Below are positions 40,564 through 64,000 of a stretch of DNA of 64,000 nt, in pieces. How positions within the stretch are numbered: position 1 is the stretch's first letter; each line of letters opens with the position of its first letter. The stretch covers positions 62,001-126,000 of the forward strand of contig QYRS01000013.1 in NCBI GenBank assembly GCA_006503535.1, in the 5' to 3' direction. Source of the DNA: Arthrinium phaeospermum. Lineage: Eukaryota; Ascomycota; Sordariomycetes; Amphisphaeriales; Apiosporaceae. The position numbers and the translations under genes are program-made. The notes under the pieces are model-generated. The model was not told where the DNA came from. It saw only the letters and a program-made list of their open reading frames with translations, and ran no database searches.

Positions 40564-42613
40564 ATGCCCGTCTTCAAAAGCAAGCATCCCGACATTGCCT
40601 GTATGTATAGCCTACCCCTATATACCCATCTGTCGTGTATCCGCCTGACGGCCGTCAAAGTTCCCGAGCATTGCACCATATGGGAGTGGCTTTTCGATGA
40701 GAAGTCTTCGTACTCTCCCCTTAATAAGTTCCCTCAGACGGACTGGGCAGGTTACACCGACGCGGCCACCAAGGACCACCTGTCCTGGAAAGGGGTCAAG
40801 GACGCGGCAACGCATATCTCCACGGCTTTGAGATCCAAGTATGGATTTCAGGCCAATGACACCATTTCTCTGTAAGCGACTTTCGGTGTTTATTCCCCCT
40901 TATCCCAGTGTCTCATGAGGGAAGGAGCAACCGTGTATTCGAGAGATATTCATAATCAATACGCCTCCTGGAAACATACTGGTCACAGGAGGAGATGCTA
41001 ATGCCGAGAATCGATAGGTTTAGTAGGAATACGATATGGTAGGAGACTCCTGATAGCTCCATGAACGCCCAGCCTGTCGCATGCTCCAGCGAGAGAAGAC
41101 CCGCTAACCATGGCGTCAAAAAGGTATCCTGTGACCTTGTTCGCAGCAGTCCGTCTGGGTGAGTTTCCCCCCTGACCAGGCCCGATGCTAAAGATGGGCA
41201 AACTAACGCCACACAGGCGGTGTCGTGTCGGGTGCATCACCGGCGTACAACGTCGAGGAAATGGCCTATGCTCTCACGGCGGCAAACTCCAAGTATCTGG
41301 CCACGCACCCGACATCGATAAAAGTGGCCGAGCAGGCAGCCCGCATCGCCGGGATCCCCAAATCCCACATCTTTTTGCTGGAGGGTGAGCTTGAAGGGTA
41401 CACAACAATACAGCAGCTAATCCAGATGGGGAAGAGGCAGGGAGAGCACGGCCAAGCTCCGGTTGCCAGCCTTCCGCCGAGTAAGAAGAACGGGGAGGTT
41501 TGCGCGTTCCTCAGCTTCTCGTCCGGCACCACGGGGCTTCCCAAGGCTGTCATGATCAGCCACCAGAACGCCATCGCCCAGGCGCTGCAGATCGAGATGC
41601 TCAAGCCGGACGACCAGCCGAGGAAGGCTCTCGGCGTTCTGCCGCTTTTCCACATCACTGGGATAGTGCACAGCATGATATTGCCCGTCTTCATCAACGC
41701 CGAAGTCATCATGCTCCCCGCCTTCAGCATGGGCTCCATGCTCTCCGCCGTTGTAGAGTACCAGATCCCCGAGCTCCTCCTGGTGCCGCCTATCCTGATA
41801 CGTCTGGTACGCGACCCAACTGTTCCGAAATACGACCTGGGCTGCGTGAAGCGCTTTTCGAGCGGTGCGGCCCCCTTATCCGCGGAGATCATTCAGCAGC
41901 TGAGGGACAAGTTCCCAGGTACGGGGTTCAAGCAAGGCTATGGCATGACCGAATCATGTTCTTGTATCACTACCCACCCTCCGGATAAGTACAGTTACGA
42001 CTACGCGCACATGGGAGGTACCATCGTCGCTTCCACCGAGGTCAAGCTGGTGAAGGACGACGGCACCGAAGCGGGGCTTGGGGAGCCTGGAGAGATCTGG
42101 GCACGTGGCCCACAGATAGTCATGGGCTACCTGAACAATGACAAAGCAACCAGGGAAACATTTGATGCAGATGGCTTCCTGCACACGGGGGATCAGGGTA
42201 TGATTGACGATGAAGGGTTCATCACCATCACGGATCGTATCAAGGAGATGATCAAAGTGAATGGGATCGGTGTGGCACCCGCCGAATTGGAGGATCTCCT
42301 CCTGGGACATGTAAAGGTTGAAGACTCCGCGGTACTAGGGATCCCTGACGACTGGTCCGGCGAGCGACCCAAGGCATATGTGGTTCTCAAAAAAGGGGTA
42401 GCTCGTGGCGAGAGTATCGGCCGAGAACTCATCAAGTATGTTGAAGGAAACAAGGTAAAGCACAAGTGGATCAAGGAGATCGAGTTCATCGACGAAATCC
42501 CCAAGAGTGCCAGCGGGAAGATCCTGCGGCGTGTTTTGCGAGACAAGGCTAAGCAGGGCATACAAGGCACTGTGGTGAAGGCAGAGGGCGGCGGCCCTAG
42601 AGCGAGGCTGTGA
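40564..42613 (+). CDS. Peroxisomal acyl-CoA / 4-coumarate-CoA ligase-like enzyme
   Basis: ANL-family adenylating enzyme that activates an acid to its CoA thioester. Five exons: 40564-40600, 40661-40871, 41018-41038 (a 21-nt micro-exon), 41124-41158 and 41217-42613, in phase to 566 aa. The small exons are needed to complete the block NDTISLFSRNTIWYPVTLFA leading to GGVVSGASPAYN. Motifs: P-loop SFSSGTTGLPKAVMISH, YGMTESCSC, GYLNNDKATRETFD, LHTGDQG, DRIKEMIKVNG and catalytic-Lys loop SASGKILRR. The C-terminus is ARL, a PTS1 peroxisomal signal. Substrate unknown (aryl or medium-chain acid). Its 3' end lies 43 bp from the convergent G-patch gene. Confidence 0.92.
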
Positions 42614-47775: not shown

Positions 47776-48712
47776 ATGTCTCGCCCCGAGGATACACTGT
47801 AGGAAACCGCCCCTCCACAAGTCCCTGTTTTTTTTGTATTTTTGTACTGCTTGAGAAGCGTCGCATTCTGACCAGCGTCACTATTGCTCCAGGTCCGCCG
47901 ACGTGCACTACGATGATACCGAGGCCCGTAAATACACAACCTCGTCGCGTATACAAAATATCCAAGCGTCTATGACCCATCGTGCCCTCGAGCTTCTAGA
48001 TCTGCCCTCTGCGTCCTTGATCCTCGATGTCGGCTGCGGTAGTGGCTTGTCCGGCGAAATCCTCTCCTCCTTGTCGCCCGAAGAAGGCGGCCCACACGTA
48101 TGGATAGGCATGGATGTCTCGGCGTCCATGTTGGACGTGGCTTTGCAGCGGGATGTGGAAGGCGACTTGCTGCTGGCCGACATCGGTCAAGGCGTGCCTT
48201 TCCGTGCCGGAACATTCGATGCCGCCATCAGCATCAGTGCGATACAATGGCTGTGCAACGCCGAAAGCAGCGAGACATCCCCTGCTGGCCGGTTGTCGAG
48301 GTTCTTCAATGGACTGTATGCAAGTCTGAAGCGAGGCGGAAGGGCTGTCTGCCAATTCTACCCAAAGAATGACGAGCAGAAGAAGATGATAACAGGTGCT
48401 GCTGTCAAGGCTGGCTTCGGAGCCGGTCTGTTAGAAGATGACCCCGACACCAAAAGCGCCAAGCTCTATCTTGTCCTCACCGTGGGTGCGGCGGTTGTGG
48501 ACGGAAAAAGCGGCGACATCACAGGGGTGGTTCAGGGCATGGAGGGGGTAGATGTTATGGACGCCCGGAACAGGGGGAAGGCTGGAAGTGGCGAGATCAA
48601 GAAGGGATCCAAACAATGGATCGTCAAGAAGAAGGAGCAGATGGAACGGAAGGGGAAGGTGGTCAAGGCCACCTCCAAGTATACCGGACGCAAAAGACGG
48701 GTTGCTTTCTAG
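47776..48712 (+). CDS. BUD23: 18S rRNA (guanine-N7) methyltransferase BUD23
   Basis: Methylates one guanosine of 18S rRNA during small-subunit assembly, with Trm112. Exon 1 47776-47798 (MSRPEDTL), intron 47799-47892, exon 2 47893-48712, 280 aa. The Class I SAM fold shows YDDTEARKYTTSSRIQNIQA, motif I LILDVGCGSGLSGE, IGMDVSASMLDVAL, ADIGQGVPFRAGTFD and SISAIQWLCNA. The basic C-terminal tail KKKEQMERKGKV and GRKRRVAF is the family nuclear/nucleolar signal. Convergent with the aldehyde dehydrogenase (about 290 bp). Confidence 0.95.
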
Positions 48713-49000: not shown

Positions 49001-50671
49001 TTACCTTCCAAGAGTACTATCGCCGGCGCCAGCTTCGTCCAGCCCATCGACACGGATGAATACGGCCTTTTGCTCTAACCAGTCGTCCAGGCTCAGCAAC
49101 AGGCTTTCTCGTCCAATACCGCTTTGTTTGTAGCCGCCGAAGGGCATGTCCCACGCGCCCGTGGGAGACGTTGCTTAGGCTGACAGTTAGATGTCCATCC
49201 CAATACTACTGTTTCTGCAGAGCAACAGGAGATGTACGTACCATTTACGCCCACCATGCCGGAATCCAACCCCTTAGCCACGCGCATGGCCCTGTCGAGG
49301 TCTTTGGTGTAGACGGCGGCATACAGACCGTACTCGGTATCGTTTGCGATCCTGAGGGCCTCTTCCTCCGTCTCGAACGTGTTGATGCAGACGACGGGTC
49401 CGAACACCTCCTCCTTCATGATTCGGGAGTCCTCGGGCTGCTGCAGAAACACGACGGGCTGCACAAAGAGATCGGCCTTCTCGGCGGGGAGGGGCGCGCC
49501 CGTTTCCACCATCTGCCCCGTCCTCTTTCCCTCCTCCACGTACCGCATCACCGCCTCGTACTGTGCCTTGTCCGCCTGCGGCCCCGACATGGTCTCCTGG
49601 TCGCTGGGGTCGCCGAGCTTCCGCGTCGCGGCGAGCGCGTTGAACTTGTCGATGAAGGCGGCGGCGGCGTCCTTTTGGACGTAGATGCGCGAGTTGGCCA
49701 TGCAGGTTTGGCCGCTGTGGAAGAAGATGCTGTGCTGGGTGTCGCGGGCAGCGCGATCGAGGTCGGCGTCGGCGAAGATGAGGGCGGGCGATTTGCCGCC
49801 CAGCTCGAAGGTCAGATGCTTGAAGTTGGATGCGGCGGCGGCCGTCTGGATGGCGCGCCCCGTCCGCACCGAGCCAGTGAAAGACAGGGCCCGGATCTGC
49901 ATGTGGCTGCTAATGGCGTGGCCCGCCACCGGCCCGTGCCCGTGGATGATGTTGACCACGCCCGGGGGGAAGCCGGCCTCGCCCAGCATGGCGGCGACCT
50001 TGTCGGAGCTCAGGGGCGCCTTCTCGGACGTCTTGAGGACCATGGTGTTGCCCGCAGCCAGGGCCGGCGCGAGCTTCTTGCTCAGGAAGACCAGCGGGGC
50101 ATTCCAGGGTATGATGGCGGCGCAGACACCATACGGCTGGCGGATGGACATGTTCATGAAGCCCGGCGTGTTCAGGCTGGACGTGCCCACGGGGTAGGCC
50201 GCCTCGGAGAAGTAGCGAAAGTGCGTCGCGGCGTAGTATCCATCGAAATAGGTGCTCACTGGTCTGCCGAGAGAGAGAGCATCTAATTGGGCCAGTTGGG
50301 CATCTGCATCCGTGATCATCTGGGCCAGCTTGGCCAGAGGTTTGCCGCGTTGCTGCGGTGACAGGGCCTTCCAGGCTGGCAAAGCTGCTTGTGCGGCAGC
50401 AACTGCGCTGTCTACATCCTCGGCGGTTGCTTCAGAGACTATCAATATGGCAAGGTTAGATCAGAGGCTTCTCGTATTGCACTGTGCACATCAGATCCAC
50501 ATACCTTGGGCCACACAGTCCCCTGAATAGGGCGAGAAGAGCTCGAAGGTCTTGTTGTCGCTCGAGGGGAGGAACTACAGCCGAAATCAACTACTCGCTC
50601 GGTCATGACTATGGCTAGGGCTATGAGCTCACCTCTCCGTTGATGTACTGCTTGACCTCGATGGGAGCCAT
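49001..50671 (-). CDS. NAD(P)-aldehyde dehydrogenase (cluster)
   Basis: Oxidises an aldehyde to an acid. Exons 50671-50633, 50574-50505, 50438-49242 and 49173-49001, 492 aa. Start MAPIEVKQYINGE. Cofactor-site signatures IIPWNAPLVF and SFTGSVRTGR. Catalytic Glu in FELGGKSPALIF and nucleophile Cys in FFHSGQTCMANSR. KEEVFGPVVCI is the C-terminal family block, and the last exon gives MPFGGYKQSGIGRE. All catalytic residues intact. No targeting signal, so probably cytosolic. It is the left-most member of the candidate catabolic cluster and shares its orientation with the GMC oxidoreductase, which would supply an aldehyde. Substrate unknown. Confidence 0.93.
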
Positions 50672-51461
50672 GGCGTACAGCAAGGTATCATCAGTAGAAC
50701 GTTAGTAAGACGATATGGACAAGCCCAGCCAGAACCACTGTTCGTTATACTCAGCGCAACATCGACTGTGTTGAGGCGAGGCGAGGCGAGAATGGATGGA
50801 TGGATGGATGGATGTTCCATTGCGCCCGAACACGCTCGTGAAGGCCATCCTGTCTTGCCTTCTCTATTTGGCAATAGCCGTCCGTATATTGACAACGTCA
50901 CACACCCACCATCTCGAAGGGGGTTCGACTCCCGTGCGCTCCACGGAACATATGCCGCGGTAACTGTGTCAAGGTAGACGGGTCTCTCTTCCTATCACTG
51001 CCACCGGAGACGGAGCGATTGCGTAAGCCGTCATGTTGGGGGTCCATGAATCGAAAGTATGGGGAATGGTGGAGGTTGGTTTGCGGGGTTGACAGGGGAG
51101 CCTCCTATCAGAATCCTATCATCGGCATAGTCAGCCCGATGGACTGTGTGCCTCCGTCGGGGTCTCCACGTGGGTACCAAATCAGTGCTCTTATGTACAT
51201 ATGCGCCTCCCTCTTGCCTCGGCCGGAACTGGCGCACCGACGGCGTGGTACCTAGTCCTAATACGATCCTGCGACGTGACAGGTCAACGGCATCAGCTCC
51301 GAGCCACTCGGTAGATGATTGACAATGCCGGCAGGCCGGGTCGAGCCATGCTGTCTACGGTACAAGACTGTCCTGTCCTGTCCTGTCCTGTCCTGTCCCC
51401 AAGTAGGTAGGTAATAACCACCCCGCTTTACATTGAGATCCATTTGTTGTCGCCCCATCTG
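50672..51461. other. Intergenic, ALDH 5' / GMC 3'
   Basis: 790 bp. Contains (GGAT)n (about 50793-50814) and (CTGTC)n at about 51369-51398. An isolated tRNA B-box-like segment, GGTTCGACTCC, starts near 50924 with no matching A box or acceptor stem. No gene recognised. Confidence 0.5.
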
Positions 51462-53351
51462 TCAAACTGGCCGGACCTGGTTCAACCCATATTCAGCTAC
51501 AATCTTCTCGGCCGCAATCTCGCCGATGATGTATGCCGTCGATTGAGTGTGATTACTGGCCTCGTTAGTTCGAACGGACTGGGCCTCACAAATCCATGGG
51601 AAAACGTTGGCTCACTTGGGAAGCAGGGGGCAAACACTCATATCGGCCACTCGTAGATTCTGCGTGCCGATGACCTTGAACGAAGAGTCCACACATGCTT
51701 CCTGCGCACTGTGGCCCATCTTCACTGTCCCTGCCATATGCCAGGAACTCCTCAGATTCGATGAAAACGCTTCCTATGCCTCCTGTCAGTTGACCTGCTG
51801 GAGAGAGGAAAAGGGGAGGTGGAAACGTGGTCGAACCCAAACGGCCTTGTCGGAGTCGTCCTGCGGCCATGACACATTCCGCACCGTCTTCTGTTTCCAG
51901 GTGGGGGCTTGGAAGAACCGAAGCATCTCCCTCATGCCTTCGATGGCTGTTCTGCGGTCGAATGGATGTGTCAGGAATCTTGGGTCGATGGCTGGGGGTT
52001 CTCTCGGGTTTGCCGATCTCAAGGCGACGGTCCCCCTTGATTGAGGATTCATCACCAAGCAGATGGCCGAGAAAACTTCTTCGTCGTCCGATATCTCGAC
52101 ATGGTCCAAGAAAGGGGCATGCGTCGCCATCTCCCAGTTTGGGACCAACGGCCTCCTCAGGTAGGTCTGCATCGGCAGTGGAAGGGCTTGGAATTCGCTT
52201 GAACGGAGAACCGCAGGTAACTGGAACCAGCCCATTGGGGAGGGGCTCTGCTGTAACAGCGGTGTCGTAGTATGCCCCTTCTTGATCACTATGCCGGCCG
52301 TCGAGAAGCAGTGGTCTTGCAGATTCCTTCCCACTTGCGGCAAGTCGAGGACACGGGGGATGCCATGTTTCCGCAGTTCCTCCTCTGGACCAAGCCCCGA
52401 GAGAAGCAAGAGCTGAGGGCTGTTGATGGCACCCCCGGAGATGACGACGTCTTTGCGAGCCATGAACCGAGCCCCAGACGCAATCTTTAGCCCAACAGCC
52501 ACATCCTGTTCGAATAGTATCTTCTCGACCAGTGCATCGGTCACAACCACGAGATTGCTAGGGGCGCTCGACAGGTAAGCACTGGCGGACGTAACTCTTG
52601 TCCCCTGGTGGATGCAGGCTGTTCCGATGCCCATGCCAATAGGGGAGCCACTGTTCACATCGGGGTTGATTCCCAGGCCAACTTCTTCAGCAGCCCTGAA
52701 CACATCGTCTGTCGTTGGTAGCCATTCCTTCTGGTACGACAGATCAACGGCGCCTCCCATCCCGTGGTCTGAGGCAGTCAGCCACGGCTCCATGCCTCAC
52801 TCAGGCGCAGGCGCAGGCGCAGGCGCGGAGTCGCTACGTACCTTCATTGTTGGGGGCAATACGCTCCCGGAACCCGGCCGGCACATCGTTGTGGAAGTTC
52901 TCGATCCGCTGGAGACAGCGCCGGACGTTCTTCCAACCGAAAGAGTCGTCGCCAACCCGCCGTGCCCACTCGTCGTAGTCCTCCGAGGAGCCGACGGCCC
53001 ATCCGCAAAAGTTGATGGCAGTGCTGCCGCCTAGCCCCTTCCCCCGCGCGTAGTCAATCTTCTGGCCCCTCACTTGAGGCTCGGTCTTGTAGGCCCAGTT
53101 CAGGAGCGATCCCTCGCGGAACGCCACCTCGTAACGCTCGGTTCCAGTCAAGTGAGCTGCATCGTCATTCAGCCCCCCTGCCTCTAACAGCAGAACGGAT
53201 GGACGCGCTGGCGACTCGGCTAGTCGCGCCGCAATCACGCAGCCAGACGGGCCACCTGTAACAGACGCATTAGTCAGCCACTCGATAGCCGGTTACTGAG
53301 CATGAGTGGCAACTCGCCTCCTACAACGACGAAGTCGAAACTTTGCGTCAT
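51462..53351 (-). CDS. GMC-family FAD alcohol oxidase/dehydrogenase (cluster)
   Basis: Flavoprotein oxidising a primary alcohol to an aldehyde (choline/aryl-alcohol/pyridoxine-oxidase superfamily). Exons 53351-53318, 53255-52842, 52795-51837, 51773-51616 and 51555-51462 close to 552 aa. The first splice forms the dinucleotide loop FDFVVVGGGPSGCVIAARLA. GMC signature 1 is GKGLGGSTAINF; signature 2 is GGAINSPQLLLLSGLGP. The C-terminal catalytic His lies in SSWHMAGTVKMGHSA and the Asn-His partner in NHTQSTAYIIGE. Intron 1 has a GC donor (GCGAGT); intron 2 is only 46 bp. No signal peptide, so intracellular, unlike secreted aryl-alcohol oxidases. Divergent from the permease, with 342 bp shared promoter. 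Confidence 0.92.
52803..52826. repeat. GCGCAG hexamer array forming most of an intron
   Basis: Four tandem copies of a 6-bp unit (AGGCGC on the plus strand) inside the 46-bp second intron of the GMC gene. Confidence 0.85.
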
Positions 53352-53693
53352 GTTAGCAATGACGGGTGATGATGGCGCTCAAGACGGCGCAGCGTGGGGT
53401 GAAGCGATGCTCCCAGACGATAGATGCCCTGCACCAGCATCAAGTACGTACGGACCGGTGAAGACCGATGGCTCTGAAGCTAGCATCGGGACGAGCCTGC
53501 CGATGGATTCTGGGGTCGGCTGTGGTTGCATGGCATGCTGACGAACGGCACATTGCATTACCCGATATCTAGCTTGTCCCGTATAAGGCGGGGCCTCGCC
53601 ACTTCTGGTAAAAGTAAGCAGGTATCTGATCCCATCTGCTTCGGACTCTCGTAGCATTTGTCGCGAGACACAAACGCCAGTACGACCCCAGAC
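53352..53693. promoter_or_regulatory. Divergent promoter of GMC oxidoreductase and NCS1 permease
   Basis: 342 bp between opposed starts, implying co-regulation. It contains GACCGGT (53453-53459), which is also present in the monooxygenase promoter. It also holds a GTATAAGG TATA-like element (about 53580) next to the near-palindrome GGCGGGGCCTCGCC (about 53587-53600), and CGATATC. Confidence 0.55.
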
Positions 53694-55415
53694 ATGGGCG
53701 TCCAAGCCCTTTTCAAGAGGCTGGAAGTCAGGCCGGCCGACGATGAATATGAGTCGATTGCGACGAGCAGATGGGGCAACAAAGACGTCTATCCGATTCC
53801 CAAGGATAAGCGGACGTATGGGTGGCTGTCTTTCTACGCCTACTGGGGAACCTGCGGGATATCGCTGTCTAGTTGGACCATCGGCAGCAGCTTGATAGGG
53901 ATAGGCTTGACCGCCGGGCAGGCCTGCGGCGTGGTGGTGCGACTCACTGGCCCCCACCCCCCTTCGTCTAGTTCCATCTTGCAGGTCAACTGACCAGAGT
54001 ACTCTGAGAAACAGGTCATTGGATGCGTCCTTGCGTCTCTGAGTTCCTACCTGAACGGCGCGGCTGGGACGATTCACCACCTCGGCTACGGAACGCTCGC
54101 CCGCGCAGCCTTTGGCCTCGGGGGCGCGTACTTTGTGGTTATGCTGAACGTCTTCCAGTCCTTCGTCTTCTATGGGACGCAGATGTACTTTGGAGGCATG
54201 GCCTTTGTCCTGATCCTCAACGCCATCTTCCCAAGCTTCCTCCACATGGCCAACACCCTGCCAGAGAGCGCCGGCATCACCACGCCCCAGCTGATAGGAT
54301 TCGTACTCTTTGTTTTGCTGTACATGCCCGTCATCTACCTGGTGCCGCCACACCGGATCCAGAGGCTTCTGGTGGCCAACTTGGTCATTTCCAGCGCCAC
54401 TCTCTTCGGCATCATGGGCTGGGCTGTGCATGCGCGCGGCGGCGGCGGCGGAAACCTCGTGTCGCCGGCGATTGCGGTCTCCAAGTCCCAGGTGGGCTTC
54501 CTGATGGTCCACGGCATCACCTCGGTCGCCGGGACGTACACGGGCGGCAGCGAACGTGTCAGCGACTGGACCCGGTACGCGAGACACCGGCATTCGGCGA
54601 CGCTCGCCCAGCTGACGGCGCTCCCGGTCACCGTGACACTGGTGGCTCTGATCGGCATCGTGACGACATCGGCGTGCGCCGACATGCTGGGCCAGGTGGA
54701 ATGGAACCCGATGATGCTGCTCCAGACGATCCAGGTCCGGTACTACACGGCGGCCTGCCGGGCCGGGACGTTTATGGCGGGGCTGGGGCTCTTGTCCGTC
54801 ACCGTCTTCATCAACTACACGCAGAACTGCGTCAGCTCCGGCATGGACATGGCCATGCTGGTGCCTCGTTATGTCTCGCGCCGGCGAGGCTCCGTCATCT
54901 TCGCCCTTCTGGGCGTCCTGGCCAACCCGTGGAGGTTCCTGACGCAGGCGACCACCTTCATCACCGTCTTGTCCTCGTTCGGCGTCTTCATGTCCCCGGC
55001 TGCGGCCGTGCTGGTGGTGGATTTCTGGCTGGTGCGCCGAACGAAATGGAACATCCCGGACCTCTACGCCTCCGATGGCATCTACTGGTTTTGGCACGGG
55101 GTGAACTGGAGGGCACTGCTATCCTATTTCTTGGGCATGGTATGGACATTGCCTGGCTTCGTCATGGCGGTCGGCGGCCCCCCTGTTGCCCAAGGTTGGT
55201 ACCATCTGTACCAGCTCTCCTTTTTCTTTGGATATGCGGTATCTGGAGGCTTGTACTACCTGCTGAATCTGCTGTTCCCACCACCTGGGCTTGGCGAGCA
55301 GGTGGATCTCCCGTTTGCAGAAGGGTCCGTCGTGGTGGGCGTTACTCCGAGCCGCCACAGTCCGACCGGTGCGGGAACTGACGAGCCAGCCCGGCTTGGC
55401 GATGAGAAAGTATAG
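53694..55415 (+). CDS. NCS1-family nucleobase/vitamin permease, Fur-type (cluster)
   Basis: Plasma-membrane proton symporter of the nucleobase-cation-symport-1 family, whose Fur-like fungal members carry uracil, allantoin, uridine, thiamine or nicotinamide riboside. Exon 1 53694-53936, 78-bp intron, exon 2 54015-55415, 547 aa, about 12 hydrophobic segments. Family marks: KDKRTYGWLSFYAYWGTCGI, SSWTIGSSLIGIGLTAGQA, SERVSDWTRYARHRHS and FINYTQNCVSSGMDMAMLVP. The polar C-terminus would be cytosolic. The real start is the ATG at 53694 (MGVQALFKRLEV). Its position among degradative enzymes suggests it imports their substrate. Confidence 0.92.
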
Positions 55416-55541
55416 CAATGCACTAGATAGAACCTGAAGAAGGTTGGTCATTTGTCGCATAGGGCATGGTCGAAACTGTAAAAGGCAGGCCGGGGTTCAT
55501 CGATGACGTCCTATATCGACCCCGACAACGGCTGTGCACTA

Positions 55542-55549
55542 TATATAAA
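55542..55549 (+). promoter_or_regulatory. TATA box of the small membrane protein gene
   Basis: TATATAAA 124 bp before the ATG at 55673. Confidence 0.6.
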
Positions 55550-55672
55550 ACATTGAAGAGCACGCACGGATTTTTTAAGGCCTCGTTCCGAGACAAAGGA
55601 CCAAGAGCCAACTGTCATTGAATAATTATCAATCATCTCTACTGCTACAACATCCATCGGTGCGCAGGAATA

Positions 55673-56603
55673 ATGGGCATCTCTCTGTCTGCAGCGCGCT
55701 ACTTGGCGCCGGCCGCATTCCTGGTCGACTTGGTGGCGCAGCTGTACGGGCTGTTGAGCAGCCCCAACATGAAAGATGTGCACGATGCCAACATCTCGTT
55801 CTTCTCACCCCTGCCGCTCTTCATTGCCTGCTTTTACTTACCGCAGCAGCTATTCCAGGCGGCTTGGCTTTGGAGGCTGTGGAAGGCCAGACCGGAGCAT
55901 GCGGAGAGCGACCGCGCGCTGAAGCAGACGATAGACTATGTCCCCTACTATGCGGCGGGCAGCTTGTGCATTGCCGGTACGTCCACTCCGCCCCTGGCCC
56001 AGCCCACGAGAACGGAAGCGAACAAGGGCAAGCAAACTGACAGTATGTGTCGGTCGTGCCGCACAGCCTGGATGGTCGTCTGGAACCAGTCCGACCTGAA
56101 GACGGCCAACGATTTCGTCATCGTCAACAGCTGCTTGCAGCTCTACTACGTCTTCGCCAGACTGGGCCCGATGGACCTGGACTCCCGGACCTCGATCCTG
56201 ACCCACGTCGTCTCCAAGATGTTTGCCGGCATCGGCGTGCTGGACCTTCTGCACAACAGCTCGGCGGCCTACGCCGTCGGCCAGACCCCGAGCACCGCCG
56301 TCCAGGTCTTGACCGGCCTGGGCTTCGGCGGCTTGGCCGCATGCAGCGACTGGATCCTGGGTGGCTGCCTCGCCTACGACTTGGTGGCCCTCGTGGTCGG
56401 CCAGCGTGCGTACGGAAACGTCGCCTGGAGTAACCTTCTCGGCGGGTTCGTGTCCGTCGTCGCTGGTTTTGTCGTGGTTCGTAACTGTCTCCGGTAAGTT
56501 CTTCTTCGCGTTCCAAGCAATCATGCCGGATTTATTTTCCCGGGGGCTAACGGGTTACAGACCCCCCTACGTTCGTCGGGGCGACTACCAGGCTCTGCGA
56601 TGA
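55673..56603 (+). CDS. Multi-spanning membrane protein, unknown function (cluster)
   Basis: Exons 55673-55976, 56067-56493 and 56561-56603, in phase to 257 aa. The acceptor at 56066 (CGCACAG) is preferred, giving CIAAWMVVWNQSDLKTA. The 90-bp intron is a multiple of 3 without stops, so retention would still yield a protein. About six hydrophobic segments, for example AARYLAPAAFLVDLVAQLYG, FFSPLPLFIACFYLPQQLF, AACSDWILGGCLAYDLVALV and NLLGGFVSVVAGFVVV. The tail is PPYVRRGDYQALR. No family recognised with confidence. It resembles small fungal integral membrane proteins often found beside catabolic or transport genes. Convergent with the MBL hydrolase (106 bp). Confidence 0.8.
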
Positions 56604-56709
56604 TCTACTAGGACGCGATAGGGTACGGCTTGCAGGCATGGATTATGATATACGAACGAAGTACTGGATACTAGGATGCCCTGCGGGGGTGTGTATGTAT
56701 GAGTGTGGG

Positions 56710-57933
56710 TTATGTATCGTCGGGCTTGGCAACCGGGGAGAAGTCCTGTTTGCCAGCCACCTCTCCTTCGTACCCAACCGCCCTGGCAAAATCCTTGAGG
56801 AATGCCCATCTCGTCTGCTTCACCCACCCTTTCTCTGCAAACCGGTTGGCTGATTTGGGGAAGAAATCGGCCACGTGTAGGAACGTTTCATCGTGTGTAG
56901 GGACAATGAGAAAGTTGTCGTGTGCATCAACCTCTTGCAGCTTCTTGATGGACTCTATGGCCTCGGGGATGTCGTAGTGGACCTGCGGAGCGTTGGCCGG
57001 CTTGGCCGGCAGATAGAACGGCTGCTCCTTGCCATCGCGTAATATACTCTCAAACATCTCGCCTGGGCAAGGCATCGCGGGCAACCCGGTGAAGGGATTG
57101 GGTGAGATAGAGGCGGGCAGTGGATGCCACGGGTGCGGTCGGATCTCCCCGCCGTGGTGAGCGGCGTCGCCGCCCATGAGGATGAAGCTGTCGGGCTCTG
57201 TAGTCACCCGGGCTAGCCCACACATGTGCCCGATTGCGTGCCCCGGGCTGTCGAGTAGATAGAACGAGCCATCCTCAAAGTAGTCGAAGGCGGCAAATCT
57301 GCCAAGCTTCAGCCCCGACCGGGCAAAGTCTATCTCTCGGATCTCACGACCCGCCACGTCGGCTTGGTTGAAGGCTGCCGACGGGTTGTCCGGGTAACCG
57401 GGGAATATTCTGTCTTTGCTTCCGGGGCCCACGACCAATGCCGTCTCGGGTTCAAACGTCGACGGGTCCCCTGTGTGGTCAAAGTGCCAGTGCGACCAGA
57501 TGACGGCCTCGATGGACTTGGTCTCCACGCCGCCCTGGTCGAGGATCTCGCGGACGTGCCTCGGCACCATCGGCGTGTACCCGCTGTCACGAAAGCGCTG
57601 GACGAGAGGCGGCGGGAGGCTCTCCCAGTCCTTCTTTATGCCGAGGTCGAAGACCAACGAGCGGCCGAGCTTAGGGTGCCGGATAAGGAAGGAGTAGCAG
57701 GGCGTAGCGAGCCACTCATGGCCAGCGATCGCAGGCTCCACAAACCTCCACTAGCAAGCAGCAGAGCAAGATCAGCACCATCATATCAGTACAGCACCCC
57801 TGTTCATCCCATGCGACGGGTTTAGGTTAGTGCCTACCGTGTTAATGCCTTTTATAATGCCGCTGCTGTTGATGATGAAGACATCGACGGTAGAGGTTGA
57901 CGCGGGGATGTTCAGATCCGGGAGCGAAGCCAT
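56710..57933 (-). CDS. Metallo-beta-lactamase-fold hydrolase, lactonase-like (cluster)
   Basis: Exon 1 57933-57838, intron 57837-57751, exon 2 57750-56710, 378 aa. Zinc-site motif HWHFDHTGD (about residues 120), further ligands in SPGHAIGHMCGL and GGDAAHHGGEIRPHP, and a C-terminal His in IVPTHDETF. All ligands expected for a di-zinc site appear present. The arrangement is that of AiiA-type N-acyl-homoserine lactonases and bacterial 4-pyridoxolactonase. No signal peptide. In this cluster a lactone made after alcohol and aldehyde oxidation of neighbouring ring substituents is a plausible substrate; that is an inference. Confidence 0.9.
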
Positions 57934-58550
57934 GGCTAAGTAGAAGTAGTCAGGTCTTTGCAGTGTTCCCTTCTCAAAGCAGCAAGGAAAGAAGCAGAAA
58001 AGAAAATGGTTCGAGGGAGAAGAAGAGAACCACTAGGTTCTTCAACCGTAATCTTACCAGATAGGCCGGCCTTCCGATGCGTGTTAGGGCGGAGAAACCC
58101 CTCCTATTGACTGATTTACACTCTCGGTCAGTTCCGCAAGTACATGTAGATATGTAGTTAGTTACCCCAGAAATGATCGCAATGCCATTTCCGATCCGCT
58201 CACTAGGCGATATCGCATTTAGACAACACAGCCGGGCGCTAGCTCATTGATGACCCGCATGGTAGGGTACAGCAAGGGATAGCTTACGCTATACCCAAGG
58301 TATAGGTATACGGCTCTGTCCAAGCAGCACATACAAGTCACCGAACAATTTCTGCAGGGGAGAGACACTGTGCGCAGGAAGAGACTCAGGCCGTTGTATG
58401 TATCATGGATCCAATTTGTGATCTCCAAGTCAGATGATTTCAGATGCTCTGTACATGTTGGCAAGCCTGCTACTGTTGATAAATGCCCTCCTACAACTCG
58501 AACCCCTGATTCCTTGGCTCCTGCGTGTGTGCTCGTCGTCTTCGTCGTCT
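57934..58550. other. Intergenic, MBL-hydrolase promoter / regulator 3' flank
   Basis: Contains the palindrome AGGCCGGCCT (about 58062-58071), about 130 bp upstream of the hydrolase ATG. Nothing else recognised. Confidence 0.5.
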
Positions 58551-60947
58551 TCATTGATAGATGCCGCTCATCGCATCTATAGAACTCAGGTCGTTGGAAT
58601 CTTGCGGCAATCCTGTGGGCCATACTGGGAACTGCGATGGATCGGATGGTTGCTGCAAGGGTCCGTTTCCCGCTATATCCGTTGAAGTAGAGTCCATGCT
58701 AAAGTCGAACGGTGGCGTCGTCACGTTGCCCGTCATAGTATTAATCATATAAGAGAAGTCGGCGCCCATTCCACCTTGGCCCCATTGAGTAGCAAAGTGC
58801 TTGAACCCTTCTTGCACTGGGGGCTCAATCACCACAGGGTTGCGAGGCTCGTGTTTTCCTTGCGCAACCAGGCTCATGATGGTTTTCTTGATTCGCTCGA
58901 AAACGTCGCGATACTTGCGAGCCGAAGGGTAACGTTCAGTGACAATACTGGGGCGGTCGCAGTTAGAATACAAAACAAACCCTGGAGTGAGAAGGAAAGC
59001 CCGCGAACGAGGGAATGCTTACTACAATAGCAACTGGCAGTCCGTTAGGGGGGTGTCCACAGTGAGAAAGCTCGCTGGAGCCAACCACGCACAATATATC
59101 AAGGTTAACCCTGTACAATGTCAGAATTTCAGAACCAACCAACGTAGACTGCCAACTGGGGACGAGGTGCCTTACCTGCCAAAAACACGGATTGTATGCT
59201 CAGGGCCGAGAACCCGACCGGGAAAACGTGGTGCAACCTCCTATAATCCGTAATGATCCCGGAACACGCGTTGGCGCACAACTCAAGGTACTTCATGTTC
59301 ATGGGTGTTTTAGCAAGCCGCGGATACAGTAAGAAGCGGATGCAGCGATAGTAGTGAATCGTGTAGAACTCGGCCCCTTCGTATGCAGAATTCTGTTGCT
59401 GGACGTAGTTGTTGGCATCATACGGGATAGCCTCCTTCCAGGAGTTCAACTTGTCCAGGAATGCATCGATTGTGATGTCTGCGATGGTGCCCGGCCTGTC
59501 CACCCTGTAAACGATATGCTGGATTTCCGACTCGATTCGCTTGAGCCTCGTCCGATGGATAAAAGATGTCAGGGTCGTTGGCGGGTTGACGGGCATATCG
59601 GTCACGTGGGTAGAAGCCTGACGCACAAACTCGTCATCCCGCGTGTCTTCGTTGATGTCCAGAGGTAACTCTGCATCGATGTCGTGGTCGGACAAGCTCG
59701 GTGGTCTGCCAATGGCAATGGATATATCGCGATCCAAAAAGTAAGTTGTCCAGAATCGACGCTTGTTCATTTCGGCCTCGACGCTCGGGAGCTGGCGCCT
59801 CGGCCGGCGATGCAGCCCGAGCTCGACGCACAGGCGCATGGCGGCGCCCACATAAGTCCAGGCCCCCGGGTCTCGCGGTGCTCTTGTACAGTAGAGTGCC
59901 ATGAGCAGTAGGTAGTCCACAGTACGGGAATTGCGAAGCTGCAGCAGGGAGTCCATGTAGCCGAAGGCTATGTCGTAATGTTGCTCACTAAAGAAATGAC
60001 CCATCTCGCCAGCTGATTCGAGCCAGCGTCCACTGACCGCGTAAACCAGATGAAGGATGCTCTTTTCGTACTCATCAGAAATATTGTCGCGGTTGGCATG
60101 GAGCTCTAGCACACGGGCAGTGTGCAGCACTGGGTAACGGGTTGCGATATGTCTAAACCAGCCTTCAAGAAGTCTGTGGGCAACATTCGGGCTAAGCATG
60201 GGGACGCCCACAAAATCGGAGAGCTGGGCCGAGTAAACGGATTTGGGGGCTGGGTCGTCTTCGTCCCCTATAATATGACTGTCATGTTGGTTGGCTATGG
60301 AAGTTCTTTGGCTTTGTACAACGGAGTTGAGGACGCGCCCGATCGTGATGTTTGAGGAGGCCCCAATGTAATGGCCTGAAGCAGACAGTGACAAGTCACG
60401 CACAGCAATGAGAATGTCATTTTCGTCGTCATCCGAGTCTGGCTGCATGTGTTGTTGTGGTTGCTGTGGCTGCAGCACACGGCGACCAGGTGTCTGGAGG
60501 TGCGGCGACGGGATTGCTGCACCGACCGTCCCTCTCAAGTGGTCGGTTCCTGCGCCCATGTGGCCCAGCGAGGCCAAGGCAGACTCCAGCTCCGCTACGC
60601 GCTGTTCGAGTGCCTTGATATAGAGCTTCTTCTCGCCCGCCGCCGGGATGAGGGGGACGATATAGACACATTTGAGAGATAGCCGCGCGCATGATGCACA
60701 GGCCGGTCGCTGCCCGTCACACTACGGGGGGAACTGTCATATTAGCCGAGATCCAGTGCAAGTTGGATTGACCGCAAGAGGCTGCTACTACCTTCTGCTT
60801 CCGCGTCTTGCAGCGCTGGCAGGCGAGAGCCACACGGTCACGCTTGCCGGCTTTGCGTTGGGTCGGCGGAGCTTCCGTGGCGGGTGCGTTCGGCGACGTG
60901 CCTTGGCCTGTCTCCGTGGTGTCCGGAGAGGACCCGGTGGCGTCCAT
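58551..60947 (-). CDS. Zn(II)2Cys6 transcription factor (cluster regulator)
   Basis: Exons 60947-60792, 60721-59176, 59110-59023 and 58947-58551 close to 728 aa. The binuclear zinc cluster is formed across the first splice, ACQRCKTRKQK then CDGQRPACASCARLSLKC, with six Cys in C-X2-C-X6-C-X5-C-X2-C-X6-C spacing. A linker and coiled coil follow (KLYIKALEQRVAELESALAS). The fungal-specific TF middle homology domain (about 215-560) contains GWFRHIATRYPVLH, GAAMRLCVELGLHRRPRRQ and RRFWTTYFLDRDISIAIGRP. The third exon gives GLTLIYCAWLAP. Upstream in-frame codons before 60947 lack protein character. It lies between the MBL hydrolase and the monooxygenase, so it is the obvious candidate pathway-specific regulator. 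Confidence 0.93.
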
Positions 60948-63491
60948 TATTGCGAGATCCAATGGCGTGGTATGGAGCGACGTGGTGTGAAGCAAGGCAG
61001 AACCAGGGTTTTCAAAGCAGGGATAGTATGCGGCTCTACACACCGAAGGCTGGATGGTGTCGGATCCGCTTTGTGCCGGCAGCTGCCGATGGTCAAGAGC
61101 ATGGGATCCTCGCGATCCCCCAGGCTGCAAATAGAGGCGCGGAAGATGGCACCGCAGCTGACCCGCGTACGGCTGGCAGTAGGTATACTTTGCAAAGCAG
61201 CGAGCAGATGCCGATCTCACCTAGGTCGTGTAGTTCCGGGACAAGATGGCCGGCGATGGATAAGTAGGCAGATGTCGTCGATATGCCAAGTTGGCAGGCA
61301 GATAAGGCGGGGGAAAGGGACCCAGCACTCGGTTGGGTGCTTCTTCGCCGCTCACCGAGGTGGCTCCGCTCCCGCTTTTCCGTGGCGAGGTCGTGTTGCT
61401 AACCCATACACACTCCCGCCTCGTCCTTCTTTTCCCTGCCTCTGCGGCGGCGTCCTTGTCTTGGTCGGCGAGATGTTTCCCGGCTGGTGGCACGCAGTGG
61501 TGGATTATGGATAAACACAATGCCGTCTCATGATGGCGGGATCAGCTGATGCAATGTCCAGCTCGGTCAGAGAGACTTGGTCTCCGCTGCAAGCATGGTG
61601 GTCGGCTGAAGCTTTCTTTGGTCATGGATGGAATGGAGGTATCAGAGCGCCACGAATGCCGCCAATGCCGCTGCCACTGGCACTTGTTGACTCCAAGGTT
61701 GGGCCTTTCCCCTTTGGCTTCCGCCAGGGGCTGAGATAAGCTTTGAAAAGTGGCTTGGGGAGCACGTTGAAGAATCCAGCACGGCTATCTGCTGCCCACG
61801 GCCCCGGCCCATGCCCATGCTCTGGGTACTGAGGCATCAGCAGGAGCAGATACTGCCTCTTTGAAGTGTTATGGCGGCACAAGGAGCAGGGCAGAGTGGA
61901 TTCGCCAAGGACATTCAATCGGTTAGTTCCTGGCGCTAATCAGCGCTCGACTGAGATTCCCAGGATGAGTTCTGGTTTAAGGCCCACCGCAATCTTTACA
62001 GTACCGCACGTTACTGTATGTACATTAGGCCTGCTGTGAACCTGCGACTAACAATCGCTGCCGCAGCACGATCTTCCCAGCTCGATTCATTCCCGCCGTT
62101 TCACCAGATTTAAGGTTCAAACCTAAGGATGACAGTGGACGGTCTGCGGAGGGGGCGGAGGGGTAGCGAGCGAGCCTGAACGGCAGACGCAGGTAGGTAG
62201 ATACATCATACATGCACATGCGTACTGCTTGCATTAATTGATCGGATGTGGGATAGTTGTATGGAGTACCTGGCCTTCCCCGCATCTCGAATCAATTGAT
62301 CAATTTGATGATGGATCGATTGGTACGCGGAGGTCCAGTCTTCAATGTTCTCTCGATGGCTGTGCATCGCAGGCGGTAGTGGTACAAATCTCGTACCACC
62401 CGACCCCGTAATACCGCAATCTCACTGTACGGTAGCGTCGAGGATTGAAGTTCTTTGAAATCAGGCAACATCGTGTTGGTACGGTGGTGGTGTTGTTGTT
62501 GTTGTTGTTGGAGAGACCACTCACTCCTATTGACGCCAGAGATCAACTATATCCCTCCAGCACGGAACCAGAATGCTCACACGCCTAGTAGTAGGAAGGT
62601 AAGCATGTAGGTAAGTACATATGTACATACGTGTAGTCGCTTCCGTTCGGAATAAGGCTCCCGCTAGCGCGACCCCATCTCCAGCCCATCCGCTGTCCTA
62701 CTTCTATTTGGAATGACGGCCACGATCATGGATCGCCTCATAGAACGCCTCAACGCCGTTGCCTCTGTTGTTCTGTTGCCTATCATAGAGCTAGGTCGTG
62801 CCAATCAATAATGTTCAGAGCTGAAAACAGACCATCAGACGGAATATGATCGGGGAGCGCGGCACATCCAGCTATGTGTCCCCGTTCTCTGAAAATGCAC
62901 GCCTACACCGGCGACCGGCAAACAACCGGTCGGATTGGACAAGCTTCCTATCTTCTACTATTGTGCCCTTCTTTGCTGTGGCCACGAGCCGATACTGCCG
63001 TCCCTCAGACTGGCTCCGACACACCTAGGTACCTATCAGATTGGCAGGTGGGACATCGGCAGCCAGTTCAGGAGCGCTCTCTTGGGGTCGGGACATGGTT
63101 CCGCGCTGCCTCTCTGGTGAAATGGACACCACTTGGCCTACATGGACGTCACCCACAGCTGGGCTAAGGCATGATACCGAGAATCCACTGGCGCTGGCAC
63201 TGCCGATCTGCTCTCTTTACGCCTGTTGCGCAATCTCGATACCTACATGTATCCCATTTGCTACACGTAATAAGTCTTACGGCCTACCCGCCATATCATG
63301 CAGGACGGCATGCTCGTCTACTATTGGCCCTTCCCAGCTTACCCGAGCCCGTCGTATGCGTGATCAAGATGGTTACCACTACCACCAGCAACACAGGCAT
63401 CAAGAGGCAGCCCGCTATCCTGCAAGTCAAGTCCTTTATCACTCGAATTTTGAAGCATCTCCAAGTCCGAGACTCAGCACCTGCCACCTCA
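60948..63491. other. Divergent intergenic, regulator / FAD monooxygenase
   Basis: 2.5 kb without a supportable gene. Contains a (GTT)n microsatellite (about 62490-62511), TACATATGTACATACGTG motifs (about 62615-62633), and a perfect inverted repeat CGACCGG-N7-CCGGTCG at 62912-62932, about 560 bp upstream of the monooxygenase. Confidence 0.5.
62912..62932. promoter_or_regulatory. Inverted repeat CGACCGG-N7-CCGGTCG
   Basis: Two perfect 7-bp arms around a 7-bp spacer, containing CGG/CCG triplets like Zn(II)2Cys6 target sites. It includes GACCGGT on the minus strand, shared with the GMC/NCS1 divergent promoter. Confidence 0.5.
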
Positions 63492-64000
63492 ATGGACTAC
63501 ACGGAGCTGCCCCCTACAATAGCCATTATTGGTGCTGGCATTGGCGGATTGGCTTTAGCTATCGGTCTCATAAAGCGTGGTGTGGATGTCACTGTCTATG
63601 AGGCTGCCGATGCCTTCTCTACTGTCGGAGCTGGGATTGGGTTCGGCCCCAACTCCCTGAACGCCATAGACTTAATCGACTCCCGCTTCCGCCAGGAGTA
63701 TAACAAGGCCAAAACAGCGAATGAGAAGCCCGAGTTTGAGCACAGCGTATTTGATGCTCTGTATGCCGAAGAAGGACTTGGCACGAACAGAGGGTGGACA
63801 AAGGGCCTTATTGGCGCCCCGTATTTTACCAGGAGCAGCGCACATCGCAAGGATTTGCTGGACATCATGGAGAACCTCATCCCGCCGGGCACCGTCAGTT
63901 TCAACAAGCGAGCAATTTCAATTGAACAAGTCGGGTCCAAGGTTGTCCTCACCTTCGGGGGCAACGAAACAGCGACTGTGGACGCCGTCATCGGTTGTGA
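63492..64000 (+). CDS. FAD-dependent aromatic monooxygenase, salicylate-hydroxylase type, partial
   Basis: 5' part only (169 codons); it runs off the window without a stop or evident intron. Start MDYTELPPTIAIIGAGIGGL. Dinucleotide loop AIIGAGIGGLALAIGLIKRG with the acidic VTVYEAADAF end. VGAGIGFGPNSLNAI is characteristic of salicylate 1-monooxygenase and related class A flavoprotein hydroxylases. SSAHRKDLLDIMEN corresponds to the R-x-x-L substrate/FAD contact. Such enzymes use NAD(P)H and O2 to hydroxylate, decarboxylate or open aromatic and pyridine rings. Placed at the right end of the cluster. Confidence 0.9.
   Translation, partial: MDYTELPPTIAIIGAGIGGLALAIGLIKRGVDVTVYEAADAFSTVGAGIGFGPNSLNAIDLIDSRFRQEYNKAKTANEKPEFEHSVFDALYAEEGLGTNRGWTKGLIGAPYFTRSSAHRKDLLDIMENLIPPGTVSFNKRAISIEQVGSKVVLTFGGNETATVDAVIGC

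Follow-up and report, generated by a model that had tools for sequence, protein, structure and literature searches.

We analyzed a 64,000-nucleotide window of the Arthrinium phaeospermum genome (bases 62001-126000 of contig 13; the assembly comprises 48.4 Mb in 19 contigs), the right end of which carries a cluster of putative catabolic genes. A first-pass annotation had described seven adjacent genes there, encoding an aldehyde dehydrogenase (ALDH), a GMC oxidoreductase, an NCS1-family permease, a membrane-type protein, a metallo-β-lactamase (MBL)-fold hydrolase, a Zn2Cys6 transcription factor, and a salicylate-hydroxylase-type class A flavin monooxygenase (FMO), and had suggested that the cluster might run past position 64000. 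All seven genes were present, with reading frames intact after intron modelling, and the Pfam matches bore out their classes (Table 1). The cluster does outgrow the window: the FMO gene extends to position 64844, and reading rightward added two genes, encoding an arylmalonate-decarboxylase/maleate-isomerase-like protein, designated RAC, and a major facilitator superfamily (MFS) transporter. This brings the total to nine genes in ~20 kb, of which only the one for the 257-aa membrane-type protein is without a Pfam match.

Exons were modelled with a script based on codon usage and splice sites, and three genes were corrected by hand; all splice sites are predicted. The first GMC intron (window positions 53256-53317) was modelled with a GC-AG splice pair.

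Table 1. Genes of the cluster and its left boundary (window coordinates, continued beyond position 64000)
Gene	Position	Strand	Protein (aa)	Exons	Pfam match and remarks
ALDH	49001..50671	-	492	4 (50633-50671, 50505-50574, 49242-50438, 49001-49173)	Aldedh, 508 bits
GMC oxidoreductase	51462..53351	-	543	5	GMC_oxred_N/C, 126/127 bits
NCS1-family permease	53694..55415	+	547	2	PF02133 Transp_cyt_pur, 257 bits; divergent from GMC
Membrane-protein-like gene	55673..56603	+	257	3	No Pfam family
MBL-fold hydrolase	56710..57933	-	378	2	PF00753 Lactamase_B, 35 bits
Zn2Cys6 transcription factor	58551..60947	-	716	4	PF00172 Zn_clus, 40 bits; PF04082 Fungal_trans, 94 bits
FMO, salicylate-hydroxylase-type class A FAD monooxygenase	63369..64844 (window part 63369..64000)	+	491	1	FAD_binding_3, 81 bits
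RAC	66040-65141 (G000:C13:127141-128040)	-	255	3	PF17645, 66 bits; wholly beyond window
MFS transporter	67497-69226 (G000:C13:129497-131226)	+	499	4	PF07690, 93 bits; wholly beyond window
Left boundary gene	47776..48712	+			PF12589 WBS_methylT, 55 bits; outside cluster

Conservation of the cluster in other fungi

Searching bacterial and archaeal genomes for relatives of RAC led to a 114-kb contig (NYXK01000009.1; L023, also L100) of the "Deltaproteobacteria" metagenome-assembled genome CPC1. The genes of this contig are interrupted by introns and match fungal proteins, indicating that the contig is fungal and was mis-binned. The contig holds seven of the nine cluster genes within ~16 kb at ~35-66% identity, namely, ALDH (59-62%; 48% in the short first stretch), GMC (45-50%), NCS1 (57-62%), MFS (37-45%), RAC (66%), FMO (49-54%), and MBL (35-36%). 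The ALDH, GMC, and NCS1 genes are collinear, with identical order and orientation. The membrane-protein-like gene had no match in the 20.8-kb locus L023, and the Zn2Cys6 gene on the contig is only 23% identical to that of the cluster.

Co-location was evaluated among the best 120 FMO homologues, the best 120 MBL homologues, and 45 of the best 120 RAC homologues by taking contigs of equal size as the same contig; a gene missing from these lists may still be present in the genome concerned, and equal size may be fortuitous for long scaffolds. By this measure, an MBL homologue lay on the same contig as 41 of the FMO homologues and a RAC homologue on the same contig as 14, and six contig sizes carried all three. 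Restricting the comparison to FMO contigs of 5-100 kb left 14 of 49 that also carried MBL or RAC. Near-adjacent locus tags were found for cluster homologues in six species: for MBL, FMO, and RAC in Neoarthrinium moseri (JX265_009003, 009005, and 009006, respectively), for RAC and FMO in Anthostomella pinea and Saxophila tyrrhenica, and for MBL and FMO in Zasmidium cellare, Parahypoxylon ruwenzoriense, and Hypoxylon texense. Co-occurrence of FMO, MBL, and RAC thus spans the Xylariomycetidae and the Dothideomycetes, to which Saxophila and Zasmidium belong.

Since the gene content recurs in a second fungus and the FMO, MBL, and RAC homologues are repeatedly found together, the clustering goes beyond chance, and an assemblage of chance neighbors was ruled out. 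The cluster is conserved between distant fungal lineages.

Enzyme families and comparison with vitamin B6 degradation

The first-pass annotation had likened the enzyme set to that of vitamin B6 degradation. The bacterial pyridoxine route relies on pyridoxine 4-oxidase (a GMC enzyme), 4-pyridoxolactonase (MBL fold), and 2-methyl-3-hydroxypyridine-5-carboxylate (MHPC) oxygenase (a class A FMO). The fungal cluster shares these three classes and also has an NCS1 permease, but the likeness stops at broad classes, each protein being closer to another enzyme. The closest solved structure to the GMC protein is aryl-alcohol oxidase 5oc1 (227 bits, versus 146 bits for 4ha6, of the pyridoxine 4-oxidase group); residues His472 and His515 lie at the two catalytic positions usual for the family. 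The FMO is closest to salicylate hydroxylase (PDB 5evy/6bz5, 210 bits), with MHPC oxygenases ~170 bits behind (≤37 bits). The MBL protein scored 37.8 bits against the NCBI model for 4-pyridoxolactonase (cut-off, 325), behind the 48.6 bits obtained with the model of the acyl-homoserine lactone lactonase AttM, itself far below its cut-off. No match above cut-off was found in a genome search with the 4-pyridoxolactonase model. The B6 steps not seen in the window had been expected beyond position 64000; the next genes rightward are RAC and MFS instead. Among frames of at least 110 aa across 39 kb rightward, inspected by eye (eight were scanned with profiles), no pyridoxal or pyridoxate dehydrogenase, decarboxylase, or acetamidomethylene-succinate hydrolase was recognized. 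An open-access literature search on fungal B6 breakdown yielded no description of the cluster. Judged by similarity scores and not by trees or assays, a role of the cluster in B6 degradation is unlikely, and we give very little credence to a eukaryotic pyridoxine pathway at this locus. The broader part of the first-pass proposal fared better: a catabolism-like cluster with a logic of import, alcohol-to-acid conversion, ring hydroxylation, and hydrolysis agrees with the families encoded.

The MBL protein had been called a lactonase. Its fold and zinc motif stand, with HxHxDH at residues 119-124 (His119, His121, Asp123, and His124) complemented by His203, Asp227, and His318, all conserved in at least 97% of 121 sequences; the motif is of the dinuclear-zinc type. 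The lactonase label was a guess. Solved lactonases gave 24 and 21 bits (20.6 bits for PDB 3aj3, of the 4-pyridoxolactonase group), scores by which the protein appears only distantly like any lactonase. Its nearest named protein is from Apiospora sp. TS-2023a (92% identity). An MBL paralogue (42-47%) lies beside a distant GMC gene at G000:C7:417622-421074 (L097), and a further paralogue lies at C8:2628 kb. The region G000:C7:417-421 kb was considered as a second cluster and discarded, only MBL (42%, tblastn) and the distant GMC (26%) having matched among ten proteins searched.

The NCS1 permease scored 292 bits against TIGR00800 (cut-off, 353), and the next-best match elsewhere in the genome is 41% identical. 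The FMO scored 273.6 bits against TIGR03219 (salicylate 1-monooxygenase; cut-off, 446.35) and 138 bits against 6-hydroxynicotinate 3-monooxygenase. The nearest named FMO is from A. saccharicola (89% identity), and the next-best match in the genome is 33% identical. Several FMO homologues, including P0241, P0246, and P0262, are labelled "mannitol 1-phosphate dehydrogenase," a name unfit for a FAD_binding_3 protein.

GMC, FMO, and MBL-fold proteins are also known from biosynthetic clusters, and sorC, afoD, and tropB are among the relatives of the FMO, as would suit the tailoring of a secondary metabolite rather than catabolism. We nevertheless hold tailoring to be highly unlikely: no polyketide synthase, nonribosomal peptide synthetase, or terpene synthase was recognized in the frames inspected (a part of all frames), the two transporters are of importer-type families, and the kin of RAC reside in catabolic-looking bacterial loci.

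RAC and its putative active site

By sequence, RAC belongs to PF17645, in the arylmalonate decarboxylase/maleate isomerase/EutA superfamily. The gene is single copy, its own exons alone producing matches in the genome, and the nearest named protein is Apiospora hydei P0001 (94% identity). Together with the nearest named MBL and FMO proteins, this kinship assigns the source to Apiospora or a near relative (Xylariomycetidae, Amphisphaeriales). Relatives of RAC are both bacterial and fungal. A tree was built from 82 selected rows and midpoint rooted for drawing only; in it, the 34 fungal rows (33 named sequences and the query) fell into one branch with 7 bacterial (mostly actinobacterial) and 15 unassigned metagenomic rows (Shimodaira-Hasegawa-like approximate likelihood ratio test, 98). 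This branch is nested inside bacterial diversity, suggesting that RAC may have been transferred from bacteria to fungi.

Residue conservation was counted in 190 sequences, of which 79 came from bacterial loci and 110 from database entries, the remaining one being the query. The motifs G-M-S (residues 90-92) and G-T-N (residues 204-206) were invariant (190/190), and Cys171 was present in 187/190. The catalytic cysteines of maleate isomerase are Cys76 and Cys194 in the N. farcinica enzyme. All 190 sequences have Gly at the second of these sites. HMMER pairs RAC Cys82, within CACLP, with the first, in a column occupied by Ala in 114/190 and by Cys in 69/190 sequences. A rival register, deduced from alignment end points (profile position 81 matching chain residue 72 of arylmalonate decarboxylase), places the active-site Gly at MGMS of RAC and the first maleate isomerase site on an invariant Gly. 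Given the prevalence of Ala and this register, Cys82 was provisionally set aside as the counterpart of the maleate isomerase cysteine.

In arylmalonate decarboxylase, the proton comes from C188 and the mirror site is G74, whereas S76 belongs to the dioxyanion hole and V156 is among the positions replaced to reshape the active site (PMC12576825). The G74/S76-type motif is kept in RAC as MGMS. Based on alignment end points only, Cys171 lies near V156. The C188 register leads to P0085 column 196 (Cys in 45/190; Ala in the query) or 197 (Gly in 190/190). RAC therefore shares the MGMS motif with its superfamily but differs by a near-invariant Cys171 and by the lack of a conserved cysteine at the G74 and C188 sites. 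On present evidence, RAC should be named neither a maleate isomerase nor an arylmalonate decarboxylase.

Bacterial neighborhoods of RAC

A flavin monooxygenase is encoded in all 12 bacterial loci nearest to the fungal RAC, at ≤1.2 kb from RAC in nine and at 2.9-3.6 kb in three. An isochorismatase-type amidase, a nitrilase-type amidase (~8 kb off in four loci), and a phosphoenolpyruvate (PEP)-mutase-like match each occur in 11/12 loci, and a Dabb protein and an IclR-like match each occur in 10/12. The PEP-mutase-like stretch follows the monooxygenase in frame in three loci (L018, 8016-9989; L022, 7971-9836; L035, 7845-9839), and the Microbacterium monooxygenase (L014:8187-10004) has a weak C-terminal PF13714 match (24 bits, below cut-off); the pair is likely a fusion. 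PuuE/allantoinase-like genes near RAC in 3/12 loci (L022:12419-13375; L018, ~12322; L016, ~13828) are possible cyclic imide hydrolases; the L022 gene scored 88 bits with NCBIfam, below cut-off, and the L016 frame is without a Pfam match. One record (L013; JASDDH010000008.1), labelled Planococcus sp., has 70% GC and matches Microbacterium at 92% for RAC and 87% for the monooxygenase; mislabelling or contamination is the probable cause.

The closest matches of the Microbacterium monooxygenase are PnpA (224 bits) and HspB (188 bits); PnpA, HspB, and salicylate hydroxylase are ipso-hydroxylating enzymes. For the Microbacterium amidase, N-carbamoylsarcosine amidohydrolase (152 bits) scored highest, followed by 3ot4/3uao (146 bits), of which 3uao is a maleamate amidohydrolase. 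Bacterial nic-type lower pathways include maleamate amidohydrolase and maleate isomerase, and HspB acts in nicotine degradation. The bacterial RAC loci resemble these systems in holding an HspB/PnpA-like monooxygenase, a maleamate-amidohydrolase-like amidase, and a protein of the maleate isomerase superfamily. They differ in that no ring-cleaving dioxygenase was recognized among the annotated neighbors and in that RAC has Gly at the second cysteine site, as described above. The gene content of the loci thus indicates that RAC is accompanied by a ring monooxygenase in fungi and bacteria alike, and by nitrogen-handling genes in bacteria.

Proposed catabolic route and alternatives

Our leading interpretation, held tentatively and at somewhat less than even chances, is a conserved peripheral catabolic cluster for a small hydroxylated aromatic compound, most likely an N-heterocycle with a hydroxymethyl, formyl, or carboxyl group. 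Nitrogen is suggested because both the NCS1 permease and the amidase-bearing bacterial RAC loci point to it; the compound is probably a small ring derived from plants or soil. In the route that we infer, the NCS1 permease would handle the neutral heterocycle and the MFS transporter the acid. The GMC oxidase would convert the alcohol to the aldehyde and ALDH the aldehyde to the acid. The FMO would then swap the ring carboxylate for a hydroxyl by decarboxylative ipso-hydroxylation, the reaction type of NicC and salicylate hydroxylase. A lactone, a lactam, or a cyclic imide may next be opened by the MBL hydrolase, and RAC may convert the resulting short dicarboxylate, possibly in a reaction that its known relatives do not catalyze. 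Regulation would fall to the Zn2Cys6 factor.

Several observations weigh against this proposal. Pfam searches of the nine genes revealed neither an amidase nor a ring-cleaving dioxygenase nor a CoA ligase, making the catabolic route incomplete. The RAC step cannot be read from maleate isomerase and arylmalonate decarboxylase because the cysteines of these enzymes are not kept in the RAC family. The bacterial and fungal monooxygenases belong to different subfamilies, and the neighbors are less regular among the further bacterial relatives of RAC: in the other 67 loci, we counted a monooxygenase in 22, isochorismatase in 16, a nitrilase-type protein in 49, PEP mutase in 2, Dabb in 1, and IclR in none. 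No shared Zn2Cys6 site stood out when 63 patterns were compared across six intergenic stretches. CGG-N11-CGG showed the largest excess (10 observed versus 3.8 expected), which was not counted as evidence because the pattern was present in only three of the six stretches and 63 patterns were tried. Finally, the substrate could be carbocyclic: salicyl (2-hydroxybenzyl) alcohol or a relative would be oxidized to salicylate by GMC and ALDH and then decarboxylated to a catechol by FMO, with MBL and RAC acting on a later lactone or diacid. The kinship of the GMC protein to aryl-alcohol oxidase and of the FMO to salicylate hydroxylase is consistent with such a route. However, the FMO score is below the NCBI cut-off for salicylate monooxygenase, the nine genes include no catechol dioxygenase, and the NCS1 permease and bacterial amidases favor nitrogen compounds; we therefore regard a carbocyclic substrate as an unlikely alternative.

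The closest described fungal cluster that we encountered is FDB1 of Fusarium verticillioides, in which MBL1 and a salicylate hydroxylase of TIGR03219 are encoded together with a Zn2Cys6 factor and with transporters of the MFS and amino acid types; benzoxazolinone breakdown requires MBL1 (PMC4726666). Both clusters thus unite an MBL protein with the motif HxHxDHxG, a salicylate-hydroxylase-type FMO, and a Zn2Cys6 factor with two transporters, one of them MFS. The majority of Apiospora hosts are grasses (PMC12044342), and the cluster could accordingly detoxify a plant lactam or lactone defense compound such as a grass benzoxazolinone, with MBL as the key hydrolase. We consider this quite unlikely. 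Two amidases, a dienelactone hydrolase, and an NmrA-like protein are listed for FDB1 but absent from the nine genes, and GMC, ALDH, NCS1, and RAC do not figure in the FDB1 list; moreover, an importer and an alcohol-to-acid series suit nutrition better than detoxification.

The nicotinate route of Aspergillus nidulans provides a precedent for the catabolism of an N-heterocycle, since its decarboxylating FMO, HxnX, acts on pyridines and shares the substrate residues His211 and Tyr215 with NicC (NicC numbering) (PMC9304392). The hxn regulon similarly combines ring catabolism by a decarboxylating-type FMO with transporters. It differs by the molybdenum hydroxylase HxnS and a Cys2/His2 regulator, both lacking from the nine genes, whose regulator is of the Zn2Cys6 type, and by a second FMO, HxnV, and the cyclic imide hydrolase HxnM; conversely, RAC, MBL, GMC, and ALDH are not named for hxn in the passages covered (PMC9304392). 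Riboflavin catabolism, as described in PMC12746152, was also considered and found to be unrelated. No description of the nine-gene set, fungal or bacterial, was found in the open-access literature, subscription literature being largely outside the search.

A bolder form of the N-heterocycle proposal, possible but rather doubtful in our judgment, is a novel eukaryotic N-heteroaromatic pathway organized around a bacterial-derived RAC. Having lost the usual cysteines, RAC would use another residue, perhaps Cys171, for a reaction new to the superfamily, and the same chemistry would be carried out in actinobacteria from an equally undescribed neighborhood.

Flanking genes

The flanks of the cluster are of the housekeeping type. 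The left boundary gene encodes a BUD23-like rRNA methyltransferase. The right flank contains an MSH3-like MutS gene, a second MutS-like fragment (25 bits, below cut-off), and genes for a GH11 xylanase, a subtilase, a CSC1-type channel, and a WD40 protein, all named after their families. Left of the BUD23-like gene and outside the cluster, the frame at window positions 41207-42613 is, judging from its motif, putatively 4-coumarate-CoA-ligase-like.

Implications

The first-pass observation of a catabolism-like cluster was right yet understated, and a cluster for a probably nitrogen-containing aromatic compound is the best account of it. Few routes by which fungi degrade nitrogen-containing rings seem to have been published, that of nicotinate in A. 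nidulans being the detailed one that we found. The present work defines a testable set of nine genes and an independent bacterial setting in which RAC recurs with a different monooxygenase. The likely active-site residues of the RAC family are unlike those of the solved relatives compared; its reaction, possibly a different one, is directly assayable. Fungal catabolic clusters are of a known kind, and the significance of this one would grow if the RAC reaction proves to be new.

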